From IMG/VR virus record IMGVR_UViG_3300009431_000640, positions 1 to 27,660 of that record: a DNA stretch of 27,660 bases; one strand, written 5' to 3'. The stretch is from a virus. The notes under the pieces were generated by a model. That model did not search any database. It saw only the letters and a program-made list of their open reading frames with translations, and was not told the origin of the DNA. Position numbers and translations under genes: made by a program. This document shows positions 1,799-22,696 of this stretch, in pieces (position 1 is the first letter of the stretch; each line of letters begins with the position of its first letter).

Positions 1799-2230
1799 AT
1801 GGCCGAACCATTGGAAAAAATCCCAGCACCCCCGCCCGATGCCGATGGGCCGGAGCGCCTCTCGCCGCTTGACCGCATCCGCACGGCGTTAGATGGTCAT
1901 TACGGCGACGATCAGCGACGAATCGTCGAGTCGGGCCTGCGGTGGATCGCGATGATACTTGCCAAGAACGCCGATTACGGCGGCAGCGCTTGGCGGCGCC
2001 CCGTCTTGTGCCGTCATCTGGACCCGGGCAGTGCCATCTTGGTCCGCATGTCCGACAAAATCGAGCGGCTGTTGCAACTCTTGGAAAAAGGGCAACCGCA
2101 AGTCGTTGCCGAAACGCTGGCCGATACGATCGGCGATCTTGGGGCCTACTGTCTTCTTTATCTGGCGCGGCCGGCTGACGGAACGGATCGCGAAAACGCG
2201 AAAACGCGAAATACGGCGGGAGAATCCTAG
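1799..2230 (+). CDS. DUF1599 / nucleotide modification associated domain 1 (Nmad1)-like protein
   Basis: A 143-residue protein. The segment with AKNADYGGSAWRRP, then ILVRMSDKIERL, then ETLADTIGDLGAYCLLYLA matches my memory of the DUF1599/Nmad1 family, which has a conserved YGGS, an R-x-x-D-K helix and a D-x-x-x-D-L-x-x-Y helix. That family is common in phages and is associated with genomes that modify bases, but its biochemical role is uncertain. The start is the ATG at 1799 with a G-run (1782-1787) upstream. The gene lies 43 bp after the Cas12-like gene and ends one base before the ATG of the next gene. Its C-terminal codons (DRENAKTRN region) are made of a repeat (2185-2210) found again in the leftward HTH gene near 8731-8756. 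Confidence 0.7.
   Translation: MAEPLEKIPAPPPDADGPERLSPLDRIRTALDGHYGDDQRRIVESGLRWIAMILAKNADYGGSAWRRPVLCRHLDPGSAILVRMSDKIERLLQLLEKGQPQVVAETLADTIGDLGAYCLLYLARPADGTDRENAKTRNTAGES
2185..2210 (+). repeat. 26-bp A-rich repeat, copy 1 (inside the Nmad1-like gene)
   Basis: A tract beginning GGATCGCGAAAACGC and continuing with a second AAAACGCG unit. The reverse complement of 8731-8756 matches it at 25 of 26 positions. Both copies lie in coding DNA at the extreme end of a gene: the C-terminus here and the N-terminus of the HTH gene there. Confidence 0.8.
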
Positions 2231-2231
2231 G

Positions 2232-3368
2232 ATGGGCCGCACCTCTCCCGAGATCGAGCAACCGGCCAATTGGCCCCGATCCCCGTGGGGACCCGTTTTG
2301 CTGATTCTCGGCCTGATCATCGTCGTCGCCGGGATTGCGGCATCCGCCGCCGGCCAACTCCCACAACCGTGTTACGGTCCGAACTGCCCCGAGCCCCAAA
2401 CCATGATCGCCCGACCCGTTTTGCCGTCGACCAGCGCCACGCCGCATCCGGCCGTCGTTCGCCTCTCTGCGCCCACGGGCCGTGCGCCTGGGGAACGTGG
2501 CGTGGGCGGCGGCACGCTGGTCTGGTCGACTGGCGGGGATGGGATCGTGATCACCGCCGAGCACGTCGTCGGCAACCAAATGTACGCCACCGTGAAGTGG
2601 CCGAGCGGCTATTGCTCAACCGGGCGCGTGCTGGGCACCGATCCCGACGCCGATCTGGCCGCCGTCCTGGTGACGCCTCCGAAAAACGCGGCGACGCTGC
2701 CGATCGCCGCCAAGAGCGAACATCCCGGCCCGGGGGATGCCGTGCGGATGTTCGGTTTCGCCGGGCCCACGGATCGCCAAAGGGTCTTTGCCGGCCGTGT
2801 GCTTGGCTACGTCAATCGCACGCGCTGTGGGCGGCATCATACGATCCGCGTCGATGGCACGGTCTGGAGTGGGGATAGCGGCGGCCCGATTCTGTTCGAG
2901 GACAAGGTGTGCGGCGTGATCTACGGCGGACCCCATCGCCCGGGGCGGCGCGATACGCGCCCCATCCATGGTGCGTGTGGCGTGCGGATTCGGGAGTTCC
3001 TGCGCCGCGTCGCTCCGCATTGTCTGACACAACCCGCAGTGCGCCCGGGTGTCGTGCCGGTCCCTAAGCCGCCGACGCCCGGGCCTTCGCAACCAGCGAA
3101 GCCGGCGGGGGTGTGCGTCGGGATTGCGGCGATGCGGGCCGAGCTGGTCAAGCTGCGGGCCGAGCTGGTGGCGGTCCGCAAGCTGGCCGCCACCGCAAAA
3201 CAACCAGGGCCGCCTGGTCGGGCCGGCAAGGACGGCAAAGACGGCGCACCGGGGGCGCAAGGTCCGCCGGGCAAGGACGGCAAAGACGGCGCACCGGCGC
3301 CGATTGGGACCGAGCCGGGCGGTTTGGTCGGAGCGCTGCGAATAAGGGTGACACCGGTTCCGAGGTGA
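2232..3368 (+). CDS. Membrane-anchored trypsin-like serine protease with coiled coil and collagen-like tail
   Basis: A 378-residue protein. A hydrophobic segment at about residues 20-41 looks like a TM anchor or uncleaved signal. The chymotrypsin-fold triad is visible: His111 in ITAEHVVG, Asp141 in DADLAAVLV, and Ser216 in SGDSGGPI, in the usual order and spacing. The protease domain spans about 85-262. A Pro-rich linker leads to a short heptad-like helix (about 299-323), then ten uninterrupted Gly-X-Y triplets (326-355) containing GKDGKDGAP twice. The coiled coil before a collagen run suggests trimerisation. By topology the protease would sit outside the inner membrane. It overlaps nothing and starts one base after the Nmad1-like stop. 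The substrate is unknown; roles in lysis, envelope remodelling or the virion are guesses. The protease call is firm, the collagen-like run is seen directly, and the localisation is inferred. Confidence 0.88.
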   Translation: MGRTSPEIEQPANWPRSPWGPVLLILGLIIVVAGIAASAAGQLPQPCYGPNCPEPQTMIARPVLPSTSATPHPAVVRLSAPTGRAPGERGVGGGTLVWSTGGDGIVITAEHVVGNQMYATVKWPSGYCSTGRVLGTDPDADLAAVLVTPPKNAATLPIAAKSEHPGPGDAVRMFGFAGPTDRQRVFAGRVLGYVNRTRCGRHHTIRVDGTVWSGDSGGPILFEDKVCGVIYGGPHRPGRRDTRPIHGACGVRIREFLRRVAPHCLTQPAVRPGVVPVPKPPTPGPSQPAKPAGVCVGIAAMRAELVKLRAELVAVRKLAATAKQPGPPGRAGKDGKDGAPGAQGPPGKDGKDGAPAPIGTEPGGLVGALRIRVTPVPR

Positions 3369-9135: not shown

Positions 9136-10746
9136 ATGATCCGCCGAGCGCTCCGACGCGAACGACCACCAGCCACGGCCGTCAGCGAATTCTTGCGCGA
9201 TCTTGCAGCTCGCGAGCAAAACGGCGCGCCGCGCGCCGTGGCCGGCAAAGAAGCCTACCAGGCGGCGCGGGTGACGCGGACGACCAAGCATTTCCAGCCG
9301 GACAACATTTCGGAAAACGCGGCGATCGCCGAATCGTGGCCGATGCTCATCGCGCGGGTGCGCAGCCTGCGCCGCAACAGCCCCAGCGTCAAGCAGGCCG
9401 TCCGGATGATCGTCGACCTGGTCGTCGGGACCGGGATCCAGGCGTGCCCCACAATCGCGCTGGAATTCATTCGCGCCAGTGGCCCCGAGCGGGACCAGAT
9501 GCTCGATTACAGCTATGAATCGGATTTGATCTTCACCGAATGGGCCATCGACGAAGCCGACGTCGAGGGCAAATTGACTTGGTGGGACATCCAACGGATA
9601 GCGCTGTCCGAGCTGGTCGAAACGGGCGACGCGCTCTTGTTGGAGTGTTGGGACGACTCGCCCGGGCGCAAGATCGGCCTGTGTTATCAGATGCTCGAAC
9701 GCGAGCAGTTGGACGCATCGAAAGATCGGCCCGCCTCCATGGGGCAAAACCGAATCGTCAACGGGATCGAGTTGGACGCGCGAAACCGGCCCGTTCACTA
9801 TTGGATTTATGACGCCCACCCCTACGATCATTCCGCGGCGTTTTCGGGCCTGATCACCTCATCGAGCCCGGTCCCTGCCAATCGCATCCGTCACCTGTTC
9901 CTGCCGTTCCGCCCGGTGCAATCGATTGGCCTTTCCTGGCTGCACGCGCTGGTCAAGTGCACGCGGGATCTCGATTGGTACCTCGACAACGAATTGACCA
10001 GCGCCGCGATCGGTGCGTTGTTTACGGCCATCCACAGCAGTGATCGCCACGATGGCAACCTCGGCATGGGTGATGATACCGACGATGAAGACCAGGACGG
10101 CAACGCCCCGGTCAAGCTGGGTCAGGGATTCATCTACGATGGCGGACCTAATGACGACTTCAAGATTGCCGAGTCCAAACGGCCGAACCGGGACGCGGCG
10201 CCGTTCTTGGACGTGATCACGCTTCAACAAGCGATGGCCGCCGGGCTGTCCCCGCATCGGTTCACCGGCGACTACTCGCAAACCAGCTATAGCTCCGCCC
10301 GCGCGGCCCATTTGGACGACGACAAGCGGATCCTGCCCTTGCAACAGTGGTTCGGTTACCGGCTGGTCTTGCCGGCCCGCCGCCGCGTCAACGCGATCGC
10401 CGCCGCCCGCGGTCGTTTCGCCGCGGTCACACCGCGGGAATTCGCCCGCGATGAGGATCGGCTGCAACGTTTCGACGTCACCGGCACGGGGCGAGAGCAG
10501 CTCAATCCCGACAAAGAACAGTCGGCCGCCGCCGCGCGGGTCCGTGCCGGCATGTCCACGCTGGCCATCGAGAACGCCCGCCGCGGTCTGAACTGGTTGC
10601 GGACGGCCATTCAACGGGCGGTCGAGATCGTTACCTACGACCACCTGGGTATTGTGGCGGATCTGTCGTCCGGCGGCGCGCAAACGGGTGCGCTCGCACC
10701 GGCCACGGTCGACGCCGTCGACGACGACGAAGCCGAGGAGGATTGA
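9136..10746 (+). CDS. Portal protein, lambda gpB-like
   Basis: A 536-residue protein expected to form the dodecameric DNA channel at one capsid vertex. The segment RVRSLRRNSPSVKQAVRMIVDLVVGTGIQA (about residues 74-103) matches the conserved start of the lambda-type portal family (R-x-L-x-R-N-P-x-h-x-x-A-h-x-x-h-V-x-x-V-V-G-x-G). Later come a clip/stem-like region, a QSIGLSWLHALVKCTRDLDWYLDNEL segment (about 257-282) and a C-terminal helix block with DDDEAEED acidic tail. Length and gene order (terminase, W, B, protease) agree with lambda. The stop is 4 bp before the next start. Confidence 0.9.
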   Translation: MIRRALRRERPPATAVSEFLRDLAAREQNGAPRAVAGKEAYQAARVTRTTKHFQPDNISENAAIAESWPMLIARVRSLRRNSPSVKQAVRMIVDLVVGTGIQACPTIALEFIRASGPERDQMLDYSYESDLIFTEWAIDEADVEGKLTWWDIQRIALSELVETGDALLLECWDDSPGRKIGLCYQMLEREQLDASKDRPASMGQNRIVNGIELDARNRPVHYWIYDAHPYDHSAAFSGLITSSSPVPANRIRHLFLPFRPVQSIGLSWLHALVKCTRDLDWYLDNELTSAAIGALFTAIHSSDRHDGNLGMGDDTDDEDQDGNAPVKLGQGFIYDGGPNDDFKIAESKRPNRDAAPFLDVITLQQAMAAGLSPHRFTGDYSQTSYSSARAAHLDDDKRILPLQQWFGYRLVLPARRRVNAIAAARGRFAAVTPREFARDEDRLQRFDVTGTGREQLNPDKEQSAAAARVRAGMSTLAIENARRGLNWLRTAIQRAVEIVTYDHLGIVADLSSGGAQTGALAPATVDAVDDDEAEED

Positions 10747-10750
10747 CCGC

Positions 10751-13297
10751 ATGGCAAAAGTCCGCTCCCACCAAATCCGAACCGTCGTGCGCGCCGTCAC
10801 GGAAACGCCTTGGGCCATTTTGCCGGAGACGATGGACACCGTGTGCGAGGTCTTGGACGCCCGCGCCGTCGGGGAGTTGACGACCGAGCAGCAATTGACC
10901 GAGCGGCTTGGCCTGACCCCGGCACCGGCCGAGGATCGCGGAATCGAGGTCGTGGACGGCGTGGCGGTGTTGTCCGTTGCCGGCGTCCTGTCGCCCCGGA
11001 TGAACCTAATCATGCGGATTTCCGGTGGTACCTCGGTCCCGCTGTTGGGCGGCCAATTCGATCAGGCGATTGCGGATGATGCGATCAAGGCCATCGTGCT
11101 GCGGATCGATTCGCCCGGCGGGAGCGCCCTGGGGATTGCCGAGCTGGCCGCGAAGATCTACGCCGCCCGTGGCCGCAAACCGATCGTCGCCGTGGCCGAC
11201 GGGGGCGTTGCCGCCTCGGCCGCGTTCTGGATTGCGGCGGCGGCCGATGAGATCGTTGCCTCGGCCGGCTCGATGCTCGGATCGATCGGCGTGATGCACA
11301 TCCACCGGGAAACCAGCGCCGCCGATACGGCCGCGGGTTTGAAGTACACGATTCTGTCCGCCGGCGAGTTCAAGGCGGTCGGCAATGCCCGGGAGCCGTT
11401 GGGCGAAGCGGCCAAGGCCACGCTGCAAGAGCGGGTTGACGACTTCTATCGGCTATTTGTTATGTCCGTCGCCGAATACCGCGGGACCACACCGGCGGAC
11501 GTGCTGCAAAACTTTGGCCAGGGCAAGGTCTATCTGGCATCCCGCGCCCTAAAGGCCAACATGATCGATCGCATCGGCACGTTGGCGGGCGTGCTTTCCG
11601 AACTTCGTGGCGCCGGCCCGGGTCGTTTCCGGATCGCCGCCCAAACCGACAATCCAACCAACCTGCAATTGGAGGTGAATTCGATGGATCCTGAACTTCG
11701 AGAATTTCTGGTGTCGCGCCATCTGGTCGAGCCGGAGGCGTCGGACCCGGTTTGCGAGGCATGGCTGCGCGCCTGGGCAACGGCCCGCGGCGAAACGCGG
11801 CCGATCACCGTGGCCATCCTGGAGGCGGGCCTGGCCGCGCCGCCGGCTGCCGATGATCCGCCGCCGGATCCGGAGCCCGCGCCGCCACCGACAACGGCCA
11901 CCGACCCGACCCCCGCGACGACCCCGGCGCCGGCTGCCACCGTGCCGGCCGATCAGCAAACGATCGAACAACGCGCGGCGATTGCCGAGCGCAATCGTGT
12001 GCTCGACCTGGAGGCGCGAGCCGGGCAGATTGGCATCGGTCCGGACGACTTGCGCGTCGCGATTGAATCCGGCACGCCCGCCGACGATGCCATGCGCTCG
12101 TGGGTCCGACGCTTGGCCACCGACCGGCCGCCGGTCACCACCGACACAGGCGGGCAGTCCCGCTCGGCGGTGGAGCAATTCGTCCAAAACTGCCAGATCG
12201 AGCTATTGGCCCGGTTTGGGCTGGGAACGCGCGAAAACCTGCCGGCCGCGGCCTCGCGGGATCTGTCGTATCTGAGCCTAGCGCAGATGGGCGAGCAGAT
12301 GCTCGCTTTTCACGGCGTCCGGCGCACGCAAGATCGGGAAATGAACGCCGTTCGCTTCCTGGAGCTCGGGGGAGCGAGCATTGCGCCCGTCGCAGCGGCC
12401 AGCGTCAACAACCCGGCCGATCATCCCAATCTACTGGCCAGCCTGGTCGGCACGACGATTGACCAGGCGATCGACCTGGCCGAGGTCACCTATTCGCAAT
12501 GGGCGGCCCGGCTCGCGGACGTGGACGATTTCAAGCCGCGGGACATTGTCTCGGTGGGCGCCTTCGACGCGCTGGACGAAATCGGCGACGATGACGACCC
12601 TCTGGAACTGTCGATCTACACGGAAGAAGCGGCGTGGTATCAAGTCGGGCAATACGCGAACAAGGTCGGCCTGACGCCCAGAATGGTCGTCGACGACAAG
12701 CTGGATGGGTTTGGTGAGGCGTTGCGCTCGTTGGGTTTCGCCCACGAAAACACCATCAACCGTCTCTGTGTGGCGCTTCTGACGACCAACGTCACGTTGG
12801 TGGACGGGAACTCGCTGTTTGACGACACCAACCACGGGAACGATCGGACCAGCGGTGGTGCGCCGAGCATCACCGAAATGGACGAAATGCGCAAAAAGCA
12901 CCGGGCCCAAACCGGTGTGGGTGGGGTTGGGTTCGTGAAGACGCCGCCGCGGATCGCGCTGGTTCCGAACGCCCTGGAAACCGACGCCGAACAGGTCTTT
13001 TTGCCGATGGCCGAGCCCAAGCGACCGGCGACGGACGCCACGATCAACACGTTCCGCGGCAAAGTGCGCCCCGTGGTCGAGGGGGAGCTGGACAGCGACT
13101 CGACGACCAAGTGGTACACGCTGGCCGACCCAATGATCCGCCGGACGATCGCGTATGTGTTCCAACGCGGCTATGGGGCTGGCCAGCGAACGACCTGGCT
13201 CGATCCGGCGCGCGGAACCAGGTACTACAAAATCGAGGGCCGTTTCGCCTCCGTGGCGATCACCCACCGCGGCATCGTCCGCAACGCCGGCGCGTGA
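10751..13297 (+). CDS. S49 (gpC-type) prohead protease - scaffold - major capsid protein in one open frame
   Basis: An 848-residue reading frame. Residues about 50-285 are an S49/SppA-like protease: the nucleophile Ser156 lies in GGVAASAAFW and the general base Lys208 in GEFKAVGN, 52 residues apart as in SppA. The region from 312 holds a short helical part, a Pro/Thr-rich linker (about 367-400) and a helical part like a scaffold. The rest (about 480-848) looks like a capsid protein of the Mu gpT/HK97-fold type, with PPRIALVPNALETDAEQVF and GQRTTWLDPARGTRYYKIEGRF segments. No stop or frameshift separates the parts. An internal in-frame ATG at 11684 has a perfect Shine-Dalgarno, so the full fusion is probably the minor product and self-cleaves during maturation. 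A lambda C/Nu3-type nested arrangement that also includes the capsid is the natural reading. Confidence 0.85.
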   Translation: MAKVRSHQIRTVVRAVTETPWAILPETMDTVCEVLDARAVGELTTEQQLTERLGLTPAPAEDRGIEVVDGVAVLSVAGVLSPRMNLIMRISGGTSVPLLGGQFDQAIADDAIKAIVLRIDSPGGSALGIAELAAKIYAARGRKPIVAVADGGVAASAAFWIAAAADEIVASAGSMLGSIGVMHIHRETSAADTAAGLKYTILSAGEFKAVGNAREPLGEAAKATLQERVDDFYRLFVMSVAEYRGTTPADVLQNFGQGKVYLASRALKANMIDRIGTLAGVLSELRGAGPGRFRIAAQTDNPTNLQLEVNSMDPELREFLVSRHLVEPEASDPVCEAWLRAWATARGETRPITVAILEAGLAAPPAADDPPPDPEPAPPPTTATDPTPATTPAPAATVPADQQTIEQRAAIAERNRVLDLEARAGQIGIGPDDLRVAIESGTPADDAMRSWVRRLATDRPPVTTDTGGQSRSAVEQFVQNCQIELLARFGLGTRENLPAAASRDLSYLSLAQMGEQMLAFHGVRRTQDREMNAVRFLELGGASIAPVAAASVNNPADHPNLLASLVGTTIDQAIDLAEVTYSQWAARLADVDDFKPRDIVSVGAFDALDEIGDDDDPLELSIYTEEAAWYQVGQYANKVGLTPRMVVDDKLDGFGEALRSLGFAHENTINRLCVALLTTNVTLVDGNSLFDDTNHGNDRTSGGAPSITEMDEMRKKHRAQTGVGGVGFVKTPPRIALVPNALETDAEQVFLPMAEPKRPATDATINTFRGKVRPVVEGELDSDSTTKWYTLADPMIRRTIAYVFQRGYGAGQRTTWLDPARGTRYYKIEGRFASVAITHRGIVRNAGA
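11671..11686 (+). promoter_or_regulatory. Internal Shine-Dalgarno and ATG for the scaffold-capsid product
   Basis: GGAGGTGA (11671-11678) is fully complementary to the 16S rRNA tail and sits 5-6 nt before the in-frame ATG at 11684-11686. The only other copy of this octamer I saw before a start is at 16933-16940, before the tail tube gene. Confidence 0.8.
11684..13297 (+). CDS. Nested scaffold plus major capsid protein from internal start
   Basis: Starting at the internal ATG gives a 537-residue protein (MDPELREFLVSRHL...). The first roughly 170 residues resemble a delta or scaffold segment with a Pro/Thr-rich stretch and would be removed by the upstream protease; the remainder is the capsid fold. 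In lambda, the scaffold Nu3 starts inside the protease gene C in the same frame; here the nested product appears to run on through the capsid protein. Independent initiation solves the stoichiometry problem of one protease per capsid subunit. The internal start is inferred from sequence and has no direct proof. Confidence 0.7.
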   Translation: MDPELREFLVSRHLVEPEASDPVCEAWLRAWATARGETRPITVAILEAGLAAPPAADDPPPDPEPAPPPTTATDPTPATTPAPAATVPADQQTIEQRAAIAERNRVLDLEARAGQIGIGPDDLRVAIESGTPADDAMRSWVRRLATDRPPVTTDTGGQSRSAVEQFVQNCQIELLARFGLGTRENLPAAASRDLSYLSLAQMGEQMLAFHGVRRTQDREMNAVRFLELGGASIAPVAAASVNNPADHPNLLASLVGTTIDQAIDLAEVTYSQWAARLADVDDFKPRDIVSVGAFDALDEIGDDDDPLELSIYTEEAAWYQVGQYANKVGLTPRMVVDDKLDGFGEALRSLGFAHENTINRLCVALLTTNVTLVDGNSLFDDTNHGNDRTSGGAPSITEMDEMRKKHRAQTGVGGVGFVKTPPRIALVPNALETDAEQVFLPMAEPKRPATDATINTFRGKVRPVVEGELDSDSTTKWYTLADPMIRRTIAYVFQRGYGAGQRTTWLDPARGTRYYKIEGRFASVAITHRGIVRNAGA

Positions 13298-16944: not shown

Positions 16945-17865
16945 ATGTCCCTTGCGAGTCTTTTCAAGCTACACGCCATCACCTCCGACAGCGGGACGAT
17001 CGGGCTGCTGAGCGATTTGACCGCCGCCTATAACTTCTCGGACCTGACCGAGTTCGCGGCCGGTCACCCGGCGCCCCTGTTCGTCGGCGCCGCCGGCTCG
17101 GTGCCGGGCTTTCGATTTAGCACCCGCGACGTCGGCGGCATCCTGGGGTGGATCGACACGGCGGGCATCGCCAAGGATCTCTCGGCCGACAACTGCGACC
17201 TGACGTTCCGGCAATCCAAGAGCCACGGGACCCGAGAGGCGAACGCCACGGAAACCCACATCCGCGGCCGGATGACTTCCAACGCGCTATTGATCTGGGA
17301 CAGCGTCCGCGCGACGCAGGGGCAAGCCGCCGAGGTGACCGCGCGGCTGATTCCCGTCTGGGACGGTGTGAATGATTGCCTGATCTTCACGAACGACGTG
17401 GCTCTTTCCGGCACGATTTCCGTGGCCAATACCTGGACCCTCGGGCCGGTCTCGCTCAACGGCTCGGCCGTCCCCGGAGTCCAGGAATGGGAATGGTCCA
17501 ACAATATCGTCCTGGATGAAGAGGCGTCCGACGGTGAGGAGTTCAACTCGTGGGCGTCCGTCGCGTCGTTCCAGCCGGTCTTGCGGTTGCGGACCCGCGA
17601 GCTGGACGTGATGGCCGACTACGGCCCGCGCGGCACCGCGGTGTCCGCGTCGGCGCCGGTCGCCTACCTGCGAGCCCGTAAAAAAGGCGGGATCAACGAG
17701 CTGGACGCGACGGAAAAGCACGTCAAGCTAACGGGCGTCGTCAGCCACGGGGTGATCAAGGCCCGCGAAATCGCCAACAACATGGCCGAGGTGACCGTCG
17801 AATATGCATCGGCCGACGATTCGGCCGATCCGTTCACGCTGGCGGTTAATCAGGCGATTACGTAG
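16945..17865 (+). CDS. Major tail tube protein candidate
   Basis: A 306-residue, mainly beta-strand protein. It has a perfect GGAGGTGA (16933-16940) before the ATG, marking high expression. Position after the tail completion genes and before the frameshifted gene and tape measure is that of the tail tube protein. The final part (HGVIKAREIANNMAEVTVEYASADDSADPFTLAV) has the closing strand pattern expected of tube-like proteins. Confidence 0.7.
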   Translation: MSLASLFKLHAITSDSGTIGLLSDLTAAYNFSDLTEFAAGHPAPLFVGAAGSVPGFRFSTRDVGGILGWIDTAGIAKDLSADNCDLTFRQSKSHGTREANATETHIRGRMTSNALLIWDSVRATQGQAAEVTARLIPVWDGVNDCLIFTNDVALSGTISVANTWTLGPVSLNGSAVPGVQEWEWSNNIVLDEEASDGEEFNSWASVASFQPVLRLRTRELDVMADYGPRGTAVSASAPVAYLRARKKGGINELDATEKHVKLTGVVSHGVIKAREIANNMAEVTVEYASADDSADPFTLAVNQAIT

Positions 17866-17912: not shown

Positions 17913-18197
17913 ATGGTTTTGAACGAAACACAGATCAAGGCCCGTGCGCTGATCAAAGAGGCGACCCGGACAACCGTCGCCTATGCGTCCCAGGTGGTCG
18001 TCACGCTCACGCACGACGAAGCGGCGCAGATCATTGCCGCCGGCGAAACGCCGCGGGGAAAGGCGCGCGACGTGAAGATCCAAGCCGTTCTCGACGCGGC
18101 CGCGCTCCGACGGAGCAAGATCGAAACGCCCCCGCCCGATGCGACGGCGGAAGTGGACGACGCGGCGGCCGAAGTGCCCGGTGAAGTGGTCGCATAA
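17913..18197 (+). CDS. Small protein between tail tube and tape measure
   Basis: A 94-residue helical protein (QIKARALIKEATRTTVAYASQVVVTLTHDEAAQII) with an acidic, Pro/Ala-rich C-terminus. Ribosome site AAAGGCGGTGAA. It occupies a tail-assembly position but shows no named motif. Confidence 0.5.
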   Translation: MVLNETQIKARALIKEATRTTVAYASQVVVTLTHDEAAQIIAAGETPRGKARDVKIQAVLDAAALRRSKIETPPPDATAEVDDAAAEVPGEVVA

Positions 18198-18299: not shown

Positions 18300-19151
18300 A
18301 TGAGCGGTTTTTGGTACTACTTGCCCGGGATCACCCGGGAACGGCTTGTCGGCGCCGCGCCCAGCGGTCCGGTGGATCGTGAGGTCCTGGAGGCACGCGG
18401 CCTGGCGGACGTGTTGGCGGACGTCGAGCAAAGTCCGCGCGACCTGATCTGTGCGAACGTCGCCAAGGCCCCGGACAAGGGCGCCGGTGCATTGCTCTAT
18501 CCGGTCAACCAGGTTGCCGCGGCGCCGGAGAATGTAACCTATCAGCCCGCGGCGCAAACGTGGTCCCCGGTGGGCGATGGCAAACAACGGTGGATCGGCG
18601 TCGACCCGGCCGCGCCGCCGACGCCCGACGATTTGCAGCGGCGCCTGGTCCACTTCGGCTACACGGTCACCGCGGCCGACGGCCAAGGATGGCAGATCCC
18701 GATCGCGCGGCCCGCCCCCGGTGGAACGGTCAGTTTGCCTTGCGATTACTACTTCGACCAGGACGGCGCCGCTGTCCGAGCCCGAAAACCCCAGTTCGAG
18801 GATATCTGGACCATTTCGGGCATCGTCTTCGACTACTACCACAAGCCGCCCGCCGAGGTCGTGGACCCCGGGGACGCCTACTTCGCCGAAGCGGCGGTCA
18901 GAGTGTTGGTCATCAACTATCGGCTCGGCCCGGCGGAGCTGACGGCCCTCTACGAACACGGGGTGGGGGTCCTCGACCGCAACTCGGTGCAGTGGATCCT
19001 GATGGCCCTGATCGATCAGCAGATCGAGCGCGAAGCAGAAAAAAAAACGAGTCCGGACATTGGCCCATCAGCGCCCGATGGATCGAGTTCTGGCGATGGC
19101 ACACCGGCCGAAACCCCGACCACCGACCCAGCCGCGGCGAGCTGTTCGTAA
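18300..19151 (+). CDS. Pre-tape-measure protein, zero-frame form
   Basis: A 283-residue protein with a good ribosome site (AAGGTGAGCG). A positional equivalent of a tail assembly chaperone, although much larger than lambda gpG. The beginning (GFWYYLPGITRERLVG) and a segment with DLQRRLVHFGYTVTAADGQGWQIPIARP are well formed. After residue 249 the zero-frame tail becomes low-complexity Ser/Pro/Thr (TSPDIGPSAPDGSSS...), whereas the -1 frame has a structured sequence. The A-run at 19039-19047 is the presumed frameshift site. Confidence 0.65.
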   Translation: MSGFWYYLPGITRERLVGAAPSGPVDREVLEARGLADVLADVEQSPRDLICANVAKAPDKGAGALLYPVNQVAAAPENVTYQPAAQTWSPVGDGKQRWIGVDPAAPPTPDDLQRRLVHFGYTVTAADGQGWQIPIARPAPGGTVSLPCDYYFDQDGAAVRARKPQFEDIWTISGIVFDYYHKPPAEVVDPGDAYFAEAAVRVLVINYRLGPAELTALYEHGVGVLDRNSVQWILMALIDQQIEREAEKKTSPDIGPSAPDGSSSGDGTPAETPTTDPAAASCS

Positions 19152-19222
19152 GCGCCCTGTTGGATTGGGAAGATCGCAACGCCCGCGCCGGCGGGGACAA
19201 CCATTTCTATCTGATTCGTTGA
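18300..19222 (+). CDS. Pre-tape-measure protein, -1 frameshift form
   Basis: Reading in frame to 19046 and then -1 from 19046 to the TGA at 19220-19222 gives 307 residues. The shifted C-terminus (58 residues) contains WPISARWIEFWRWHTGRNP, ELFVSALLDWEDRNARAG and NHFYLIR, far more protein-like than the alternative. The stop is 6 bp before the tape measure ATG, which has no Shine-Dalgarno of its own, so tape measure translation may depend on ribosomes that shifted. This mirrors the gpG/gpGT slip before the tape measure in lambda-like phages, although here the first product is larger. Inferred, not demonstrated. Confidence 0.6.
19040..19046 (+). promoter_or_regulatory. Programmed -1 frameshift heptamer A AAA AAA
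   Basis: Nine A residues at 19039-19047. In the zero frame the codons are GAA AAA AAA ACG, so A-AAA-AAA at 19040-19046 is a correct X-XXY-YYZ type slippery site. The palindrome GTCCGGAC (19051-19058) and a small hairpin CCATC/GATGG (19065-19069 with 19077-19081) follow downstream and could act as stimulators. Confidence 0.65.
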
Positions 19223-19228
19223 CGCACC

Positions 19229-20623
19229 ATGTCGTTTCTCAAACAGACCTTCGATGGTGACACGAGCCGGATCGAGGCGGCGTACGGGCGCATCCAACGC
19301 GACAACGCCAAGTTGATCGCGCAAAACCAACAGCTTGCCCGCCAGTCGGCACGGTCCCAGCGAAGTTTTTCGTCCGGAATGCACAGTGGAGCCCGGCAAA
19401 TCCAAAACATGGCGACACAATACATCACGTTGACCGCGGGCGTCGATATGGTCACCAGAGCCTACGCCGGGTGGCGGGAAGAAATGCAAAACCTCGGCGA
19501 CGAGCACACGAAGTTCGCCGCGAAAGCAATCCGCGCCATCACGGAAACCGGCGACTTGGCCAGCTCTAAAAAGATTCGCGGCCGACTGGAAACCATGCCG
19601 GGCGCCACGGCGGAGCAAGCGCTGGCAGCGTTCTCGGGCGTATCGGCCGGCGTCCCCGAGGCGGACCTCGAACGCCGGTTGAAACTGGCTCGCCGCGTCG
19701 CTCGCCAAGCGCCAACCGGCGTTGACCTCGAACAGGTGGGCGAGCTGGCTGGCGAAATGGCCAAGCGGATGCCCGGCAAGAAGGCGGGCGACATCGTCGA
19801 CTTGGCCACCAAGCTCCGCGCGGAAGCGGGAGGCAACATCCAAAAGGTTGCGACCGGTCAGTTCTGGAAAGCCGTCGGCATCCTGCAAGACACGGGCGCC
19901 GCAACTCCCGAGCAGGCGATGGGCATCACGCTGGAGGGGATGAAAAAGGGGATGCGTGCCGAGGCGGTGATCACCGCGGCGGCCAAGATTGAAGACTTCA
20001 AGCCATCGAAAACCGACCCGCTCCACAAAACGTTCGCCGCGGCGGGACCGAAAGACCGACTCGAAATGTTGCTGTCCGACAAGGCGATGGCAACCTCCAT
20101 CCTCGGTGATCAAGGCGTGCGCCTTTCGCAGATCGATCGGGGGGAAGCGATGCGGTTGGCCGGTGCCTTCGGCCAAGCCCAGCGCGAAGACTTCGCGTTC
20201 CAGCAAGTCCGCAACCTCAAGGAATCCGTCTGGGGCCAAGAGGCGCTGCGAGAGCATCAGACCGCGCTCAAGCTGGACCGATCGACGCGCGCGGCGGGAC
20301 TTCGCGAAGCCCAAACACAACGTGCAATCGACATCGTGAAGGCCGAAACCCAAGACGAAGGGTGGTGGGCGCAAGCCCACGCGCAGCGCTTTGCTAAAGC
20401 GGATCGCTGGCTTGGTGCGTCCGCAAAGCAGATCCTCGAAGCGACGATGCACCGGGGGTATCTTGGCGAAGGCCAAGTTAAACAGTTCGTCGGACAAGAG
20501 GCCGAAATCACCAACGAGATCCAGCGCCAGACCGACATCCTGAAGGGCGTGACCGAAGAAGTCGGCCGCAAGCTCGAAGGCGCCGCTGCCGCCGCCGAAG
20601 TTGGCCGCCACCTGGAGAACTGA
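19229..20623 (+). CDS. Tape measure protein
   Basis: A 464-residue, almost entirely helical protein with a charged coiled-coil N-terminus (RIEAAYGRIQRDNAKLIAQNQQLARQSARSQ) and many Ala/Gln/Lys-rich helices, the usual tape measure composition and gene position. At about 0.15 nm per residue a tail of roughly 70 nm would be implied, a short siphovirus tail. There is no obvious transglycosylase or peptidase motif. Confidence 0.75.
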   Translation: MSFLKQTFDGDTSRIEAAYGRIQRDNAKLIAQNQQLARQSARSQRSFSSGMHSGARQIQNMATQYITLTAGVDMVTRAYAGWREEMQNLGDEHTKFAAKAIRAITETGDLASSKKIRGRLETMPGATAEQALAAFSGVSAGVPEADLERRLKLARRVARQAPTGVDLEQVGELAGEMAKRMPGKKAGDIVDLATKLRAEAGGNIQKVATGQFWKAVGILQDTGAATPEQAMGITLEGMKKGMRAEAVITAAAKIEDFKPSKTDPLHKTFAAAGPKDRLEMLLSDKAMATSILGDQGVRLSQIDRGEAMRLAGAFGQAQREDFAFQQVRNLKESVWGQEALREHQTALKLDRSTRAAGLREAQTQRAIDIVKAETQDEGWWAQAHAQRFAKADRWLGASAKQILEATMHRGYLGEGQVKQFVGQEAEITNEIQRQTDILKGVTEEVGRKLEGAAAAAEVGRHLEN

Positions 20624-21970: not shown

Positions 21971-22696
21971 ATGGGTTTGTCACGACTTCGCACCGGCGGA
22001 CTGTTGCAACCGGCCCCCGGCGCGCACGCGATCTGGGGCGGGTGCGTCGCGTTCTGGAAGCTCGAAGAGGATTCGGGCAACGACCGGGTCGCCCAGTTCG
22101 GCGGATTCGAGCTGGCCGAAACGGGCGGGGTGATCGCTCGGGCCACCGGCAAGCTGGGTTACGGTGTCGATTTCGAGGCGGACGATTCGCGCCTCTTGCT
22201 GTGCGATGCGTCGTGTTTGCACCTGACAACGTTTACGATCGCCGGCTGGGCGAAGATGGAAACCAAGCCGGCGGCAAGCGGTCGATGGGCCGCCCGGAGC
22301 AACGGCGCCGGCAAGCTGGTGTTTCGGATCGGTCGCCGGCACGATACGGACCGGGCGGAGTTCGCCGTCTCGACCAACGGCACAAGCTGGGGCGCCACCT
22401 GCACCACAAGCCTCGCGGGCATTGCCGCGGGGACCTGGTTTTTCTGGGCCTCTCGTTACAACGACACGACCAAAAAGGCCGACTTGCGGGTCAACACGAC
22501 CGACGCGGTGCAACAGACGCTCGGCGGCGCGATCAATGGGTCGGCCGACGCGGGTGTCACGCTCGGCGCGTTGCAATCGGGCGGCCAGTATTTCGACGGC
22601 GTGGTGGACGCGGTCGGCGCGTGGGCGAAGGTCTTGACCGACGCCCAATTGACCACGCTCTACAACTCCGGCACGGGCCGGGAGCATCCGGATTGA
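21971..22696 (+). CDS. LamG/concanavalin-like tail protein (putative glycan binding)
   Basis: A 241-residue protein with the LamG_3 pattern: an early G-C-V-A-F-W-K-L-E-E-D-S-G segment (about residues 23-36), LTTFTIAGWAKM (about 85-96), AGTWFFWASRYNDTTKKADL (about 152-170) and a closing YFDGVVDAVGAWAKVLTDAQLTTLYNSG-type helix end (about 205-233). Such domains usually bind sugars or other surface ligands. Its place between tail genes suggests adsorption or tail-tip decoration. Confidence 0.75.
   Translation: MGLSRLRTGGLLQPAPGAHAIWGGCVAFWKLEEDSGNDRVAQFGGFELAETGGVIARATGKLGYGVDFEADDSRLLLCDASCLHLTTFTIAGWAKMETKPAASGRWAARSNGAGKLVFRIGRRHDTDRAEFAVSTNGTSWGATCTTSLAGIAAGTWFFWASRYNDTTKKADLRVNTTDAVQQTLGGAINGSADAGVTLGALQSGGQYFDGVVDAVGAWAKVLTDAQLTTLYNSGTGREHPD

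Follow-up and report, generated by a model that had tools for sequence, protein, structure and literature searches.

A family of divergent tailed phages, represented here by one 27,660-bp IMG/VR virus record (analysed over its whole length and referred to as the window) and nine relatives, carries directly before a tape-measure-like gene a presumed tail assembly chaperone gene that is laid out in two frames joined at a run of exactly nine A residues (A9). The two frames probably encode a G/GT-type pair of chaperones in which the shift is most likely brought about by slippage of RNA polymerase at A9. With slightly more reserve, comparison of the ten sequences leads us to favour the wider reading that this phage family sets the ratio of its two chaperones by polymerase slippage at a run selected for its length, and not ribosomally. 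The frameshift of tail chaperones is among the most conserved recoding events of phages and is regarded as ribosomal. If the proposed slippage is true, the protein logic of the lambda G/GT pair would here have been reached at the level of transcription, and selection would act on the ratio of the two proteins and not on the machine making it, as is known for dnaX. Predictors of frameshift genes that are based on ribosomal signals would then mislabel such genes. The annotation rule for this phage family is that the frames are joined at A9, and the prediction of polymerase slippage is open to plain RNA sequencing.

The Two-Frame Gene and Its Relatives

The genes and sites around the junction in the window are the following.

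16945..17865, plus strand: upstream gene, 306 aa, presumed major tail (tube) protein, without Pfam or PHROG match
18300..19151, plus strand: zero-frame ORF, 283 aa, presumed tail assembly chaperone (G-like product)
19039..19047, plus strand: A9 slip site in the context G-A9-CG, with the heptamer A_AAA_AAA in frame at 19040-19046
19046..19222, plus strand: -1 extension, 58 aa plus stop, T-like tail with two predicted helices
19047..19151, plus strand: zero-frame-only extension, 34 aa, rich in Thr, Ser, Pro and Ala, overprinted on the -1 tail
19229..20623, plus strand: next gene, 464 aa, tape-measure-like, 6 nt past the -1 stop, no Shine-Dalgarno (SD) sequence

The zero-frame codons at the run are GAA AAA AAA ACG. 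The zero-frame product of 283 aa and the -1 fusion product of 307 aa have 249 aa in common, and the final 34 residues of the former belong to the zero frame only. A first-pass annotation of this DNA had described the ORF at 18300-19151, the A9 run, the heptamer at 19040-19046, the 58-residue tail and the stop at 19222, and all of these details were correct when checked. Its description of the zero frame after the site as Ser/Pro/Thr filler agrees with the Ser/Pro/Thr/Ala-rich composition of the final 34 residues, and the tape-measure start does lie 6 nt past the -1 stop without a ribosome site of its own (start at 19229, no match to AGGAGG of at least 4 nt). A9 is the sole A-run of at least seven residues in the window. 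Taken alone, a single A9 in a window of such composition is not very rare, since a run of at least nine A's arose in 5 of 40 third-order Markov simulations of that composition, and it is therefore not strong evidence. As chance could give one A9, the evidence beyond chance is its conservation in relatives.

A search with the terminase led to the first relative, IMGVR_UViG_3300028830_000092 (L006), in which the gene at 10077-10880 is about one third identical to that of the window and agrees with it in A9, frame relation and tail. Eight further IMG/VR records were found from alignments of the fused proteins, which brings the total to 10 members including the window. The search queries were terminase or chaperone/tail peptides and not the A-run, so that the member set was not selected for the presence of the run. 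The fused proteins of the ten members are mostly 26-40% identical, the exception being L007 and L011 (65%). All nine relatives are laid out in the same two frames, their -1 tails are homologous, and the next gene starts beside the -1 stop. The final viral scan revealed no further members, and direct searches found no close relatives of the chaperone, the upstream protein or a 733-aa protein; no relatives were obtained from the phage and plasmid records searched directly or from the genome contigs scanned. The first-pass annotation had proposed to compare relatives for a conserved shift. A9 with the -1 layout was encountered in 10 of 10 members, and a relative without the A-run but with both frames unlinked does not occur among the ten.

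This recurrence also bears on the idea that the run is a homopolymer sequencing or assembly error and the gene really one continuous frame. Homopolymers are in general prone to errors, but A9 and the same frame relation are present in ten records of different IMG/VR accession prefixes, and L007 and L011 have the zero-frame extension conserved as well. We therefore consider such an error highly improbable.

Probable Chaperone Identity and the -1 Tail

We infer a chaperone function for the first product with modest confidence, from its position and from one modest fold match. The AF2 model of the part shared by both products (pLDDT 85.8) has one significant match in BFVD, the tail assembly chaperone A0A6J5LCU1 (E 9.5e-4, prob 1.00), and two more BFVD chaperones were found lower down with non-significant E-values. 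The match to A0A6J5LCU1 is partial (TM-score 0.29 by query and 0.50 by target), so that a further domain is probably present in the 249-aa shared part in addition to the chaperone core. Fold searches of the PDB with the model returned nothing significant, a structure profile search matched no PDB sequence, and no match to the chaperone protein was found in Pfam, PHROG or NCBIfam. The phage family is divergent and matches no model of these three collections; known tail chaperone families are very diverse in sequence.

The gene order of tube-like, chaperone and tape-measure-like gene holds in the window and the relatives, although the neighbours are without family match. An upstream ORF of similar size (ca. 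300 aa) is present in several relatives, e.g., L006, L011, L013 and L015. In the window, a 94-aa ORF (17913-18197) separates the chaperone gene from the presumed tube gene. An extra ORF directly upstream of the chaperone gene was likewise observed in L009, L016 and L017; it is absent in L006, L011 and L015.

All ten members have homologous -1 tails, which share the motif [YH]RP[ST]xG[DE]L, with W, G, R, P, G and L invariant in their alignment. A -1 transition leading from the gene ahead of the tape measure into a genuine, conserved tail, as claimed, is well supported. The AF2 model of the window tail consists of two helices (pLDDT about 90 over residues 11-50); a viral fold search with the tail alone gave nothing meaningful. 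In L009, L015 and L017 the zero frame ends as soon as 1, 4 and 11 codons past the site, respectively, which indicates that in these members the tail is itself coding sequence. The zero-frame-only extension is, consequently, nearly missing in L009 and L015 (1 and 4 aa, respectively) and would be dispensable in the family. For the closely related pair L007 and L011, the differences amount to 12 of 100 bases past the run and to 88 of 300 bases before it (12% vs 29%; Fisher p 5e-4), a slowdown as expected from two overlapping coding frames. A codon-position test on this pair did not separate the frames (5/2/5 in the -1 frame), as both of them are constrained, and only the overall slowdown is informative.

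The tail could also be a separate small protein, independently started or coupled, with no shift taking place at all, and short overlapping genes are indeed common in phages. The tails, however, have no plausible start or ribosome site (those of L009 and L015 do not even contain a Met), and a separate protein leaves A9 at the junction of 10 out of 10 members unexplained, which makes this option very unlikely. The two-frame layout, the homologous tails and the chaperone fold match, evidence from sequence and modelling, argue well for a G/GT-like pair of a chaperone and its -1 fusion.

The first product was claimed to be larger than lambda gpG, and this is the case: gpG is about 140 aa, whereas the first product is 283 aa in the window and 236-292 aa across the members. 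The added tail is small (29-60 aa across the members), and no sequence similarity was found between the lambda G/GT proteins and the members described here. As in lambda, the gene is situated directly before the tape measure gene, the -1 transition is near the 3' end, and the long product is a fusion with a distinct added domain (passages in PMC5009743).

Run Length and Codon Phase

All ten members have a run of exactly nine A's at the same junction. Lengths of 8 or 10 do not occur, and each run contains A_AAA_AAA in the zero frame. The codon phase is, in contrast, free. The run begins at codon position 2 in six members (the window, L006, L015, L016, L017 and L018), at position 3 in three (L007, L011 and L013) and at position 1 in one (L009), and approximately three phase changes are needed on the (weakly supported) tree while the length stays at nine. 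If only the heptamer were under selection and its flanks were free, the probability of a length of nine would not exceed 0.19 in any one lineage, whichever flank probability up to 0.5 is assumed, and would be <1e-6 across nine lineages when these are taken as independent, an approximation since some of the identity is inherited. The ten records, taken whole and on both strands (307 kb), contain only six other A-runs of at least eight residues, and in seven of the ten the junction run is the only one of that length. Outside the junction runs (that of L018 is located at G011 11587-11595), the only A-runs of at least nine in the ten records are an A10 run at G011:C1:5173-5182, in the record of L018, and an A9 run on the minus strand at G004:C1:31215-31223, in the record of L007.

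Programmed transcriptional realignment is characterized by a conserved A or T homopolymer of at least about eight residues at the transition and by a length independent of phase, and both are found in this family. A fixed length combined with a free phase points to an agent that is blind to frame, most simply a slipping RNA polymerase. The first-pass annotation had recognized here the conserved tail chaperone frameshift. The two-frame pair is upheld by our comparison, but the role of the ribosome as its agent is called into question since it is the length and not the phase that is conserved.

The constancy of the run also has consequences for phase variation, in which a contingency tract of varying length in the population would switch the fusion on and off. 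Poly-A tracts are mutable, which would suit such a tract, but every member has nine residues and both products are expected to be needed in each infection. We give this explanation hardly any credence.

Polymerase Versus Ribosomal Slippage

In the mechanism that we propose, transcripts would mostly contain nine A's and yield the 283-aa chaperone. The host RNA polymerase would add one A at A9 in some of them, and these A10 mRNAs would be read straight into the -1 frame, so that a fraction of the product would be shifted at A9 and become the 307-aa fusion with the conserved small helical domain at its end. The analogy with lambda suggests that the chaperone would coat the tape measure and that the fusion would recruit the tail tube. 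We infer that both proteins are made and that the polymerase is the main agent, and polymerase and ribosome may both contribute. Slippage of E. coli RNA polymerase on poly(A) starts from about 8 A's and proceeds by insertion, with no deletion signal seen (PMC6260861). One inserted A results in the -1 frame and, as the E. coli enzyme inserts without deletion on poly(A), a single direction of shift is expected; the direction is -1 in 10 of 10 members.

The same two products could be formed by -1 ribosomal frameshifting at A_AAA_AAA, as happens in lambda and in most known tail-chaperone pairs, which we regard as a serious though less probable explanation. Ribosomal slippage is possible in every member, as each of the ten has the heptamer in frame. 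The single direction can be read in this way as well, since the authors of GeneTack consider one shift direction among orthologues a sign of ribosomal shifting (passage in PMC3711429), and for phage tail genes the ribosomal route is the established one (as treated in parts of PMC5009743). Moreover, long A-runs can let ribosomes slide without strict phase, and a stimulator is not needed at every site. However, a ribosomal heptamer does not need exactly nine A's in three codon phases. The second AAA is, furthermore, never AAG in the ten members, although, of these two ribosomal sites, A_AAA_AAG is by far the stronger in E. coli (PMC5009743). Neither an SD nor a downstream structure is consistent across the members: no excess of folding was detected in the 71 nt after the site (mean z -0.14), and no SD-like stimulator is consistently placed, a 5/6 match occurring in only 3 of the 10 members and at varied spacings.

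Slippage by polymerase, the explanation that we prefer, has parallels in cellular genes. The dnaX gene of Thermus thermophilus also uses an A9 run to make two products from one gene (passages in PMC3711429 and PMC5009743), and slippage does occur at that A9 (PMC3711429). It differs in that slippage yields the shorter product in dnaX and the longer one here, and in that dnaX is cellular. Poly-A slippage giving two length variants has also been described for the type VI secretion genes tssM1 of Citrobacter rodentium (A11) and tssM3 of Yersinia pseudotuberculosis (A9), which encode a component of a phage-tail-like machine (passages in PMC4256274). With tssM1, both variants are required, and neither an SD nor an RNA structure was found. 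Slippage in the tssM genes proceeds at A9-A11 without ribosomal signals (PMC4256274). TssM is, in contrast to the proteins considered here, a membrane protein and no chaperone, and it is bacterial and not viral. The lambda pair has its own heptamer, whereas the site here is A9 and polymerase slippage is likely. No description of a tail chaperone made by transcriptional slippage was found in the titles, abstracts and passages of the open-access literature, a body of text that mostly excludes subscription papers, and we do not claim priority.

The Tape-Measure-Like Gene and Its Possible Coupling to the Shift

The next gene occupies the same position in the relatives, where it encodes 386-714 aa. 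The 464-aa protein of the window has no match in Pfam or PHROG, and it is consequently named tape measure for its position and the character of its sequence. The start of the downstream gene could be placed in nine members, where it ranges from 14 nt before to 6 nt after the end of the -1 stop. An SD is lacking in the window, L009 and L015, and their zero-frame stop is located 77-131 nt upstream of the start (77 nt in the window), which fits coupling of tape-measure synthesis to the shifted frame. It was previously suggested that synthesis of the tape measure is coupled to the shift and, judged from the sequence, this is plausible for the window. It is not general, however, since L007 and L011 have a GGAG and a zero-frame stop directly adjoining the tape-measure start; in L013 the zero-frame stop is only 9 nt from that start.

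Other Features of the Window

The window encodes a gpA-type terminase and a lambda-type portal, and an 881-aa ORF at 10652-13297 combines S49 peptidase and phage capsid domains in a protease-capsid fusion. A CRISPR array at its left end (9-364) has six repeats of 36-38 bp and spacers of 21-30 bp, for which no convincing targets were found among the loci of this analysis. The array is followed at 430-1755 by a gene for a Cas12f-like protein (PADLOC Cas12f, E 4e-17; PDB 9i8y, Cas12f1, E 4e-9), so that this virus record carries a compact CRISPR locus of type V-F. The ORF at 1959-3368 contains, by eye, a trypsin-like stretch and then collagen-like GPPGKDGKDG repeats. In the tail region, the stretch 21971-22696 carries a Laminin-G/concanavalin-like domain (Pfam PF13385, E 4.5e-14), a possible adhesin.
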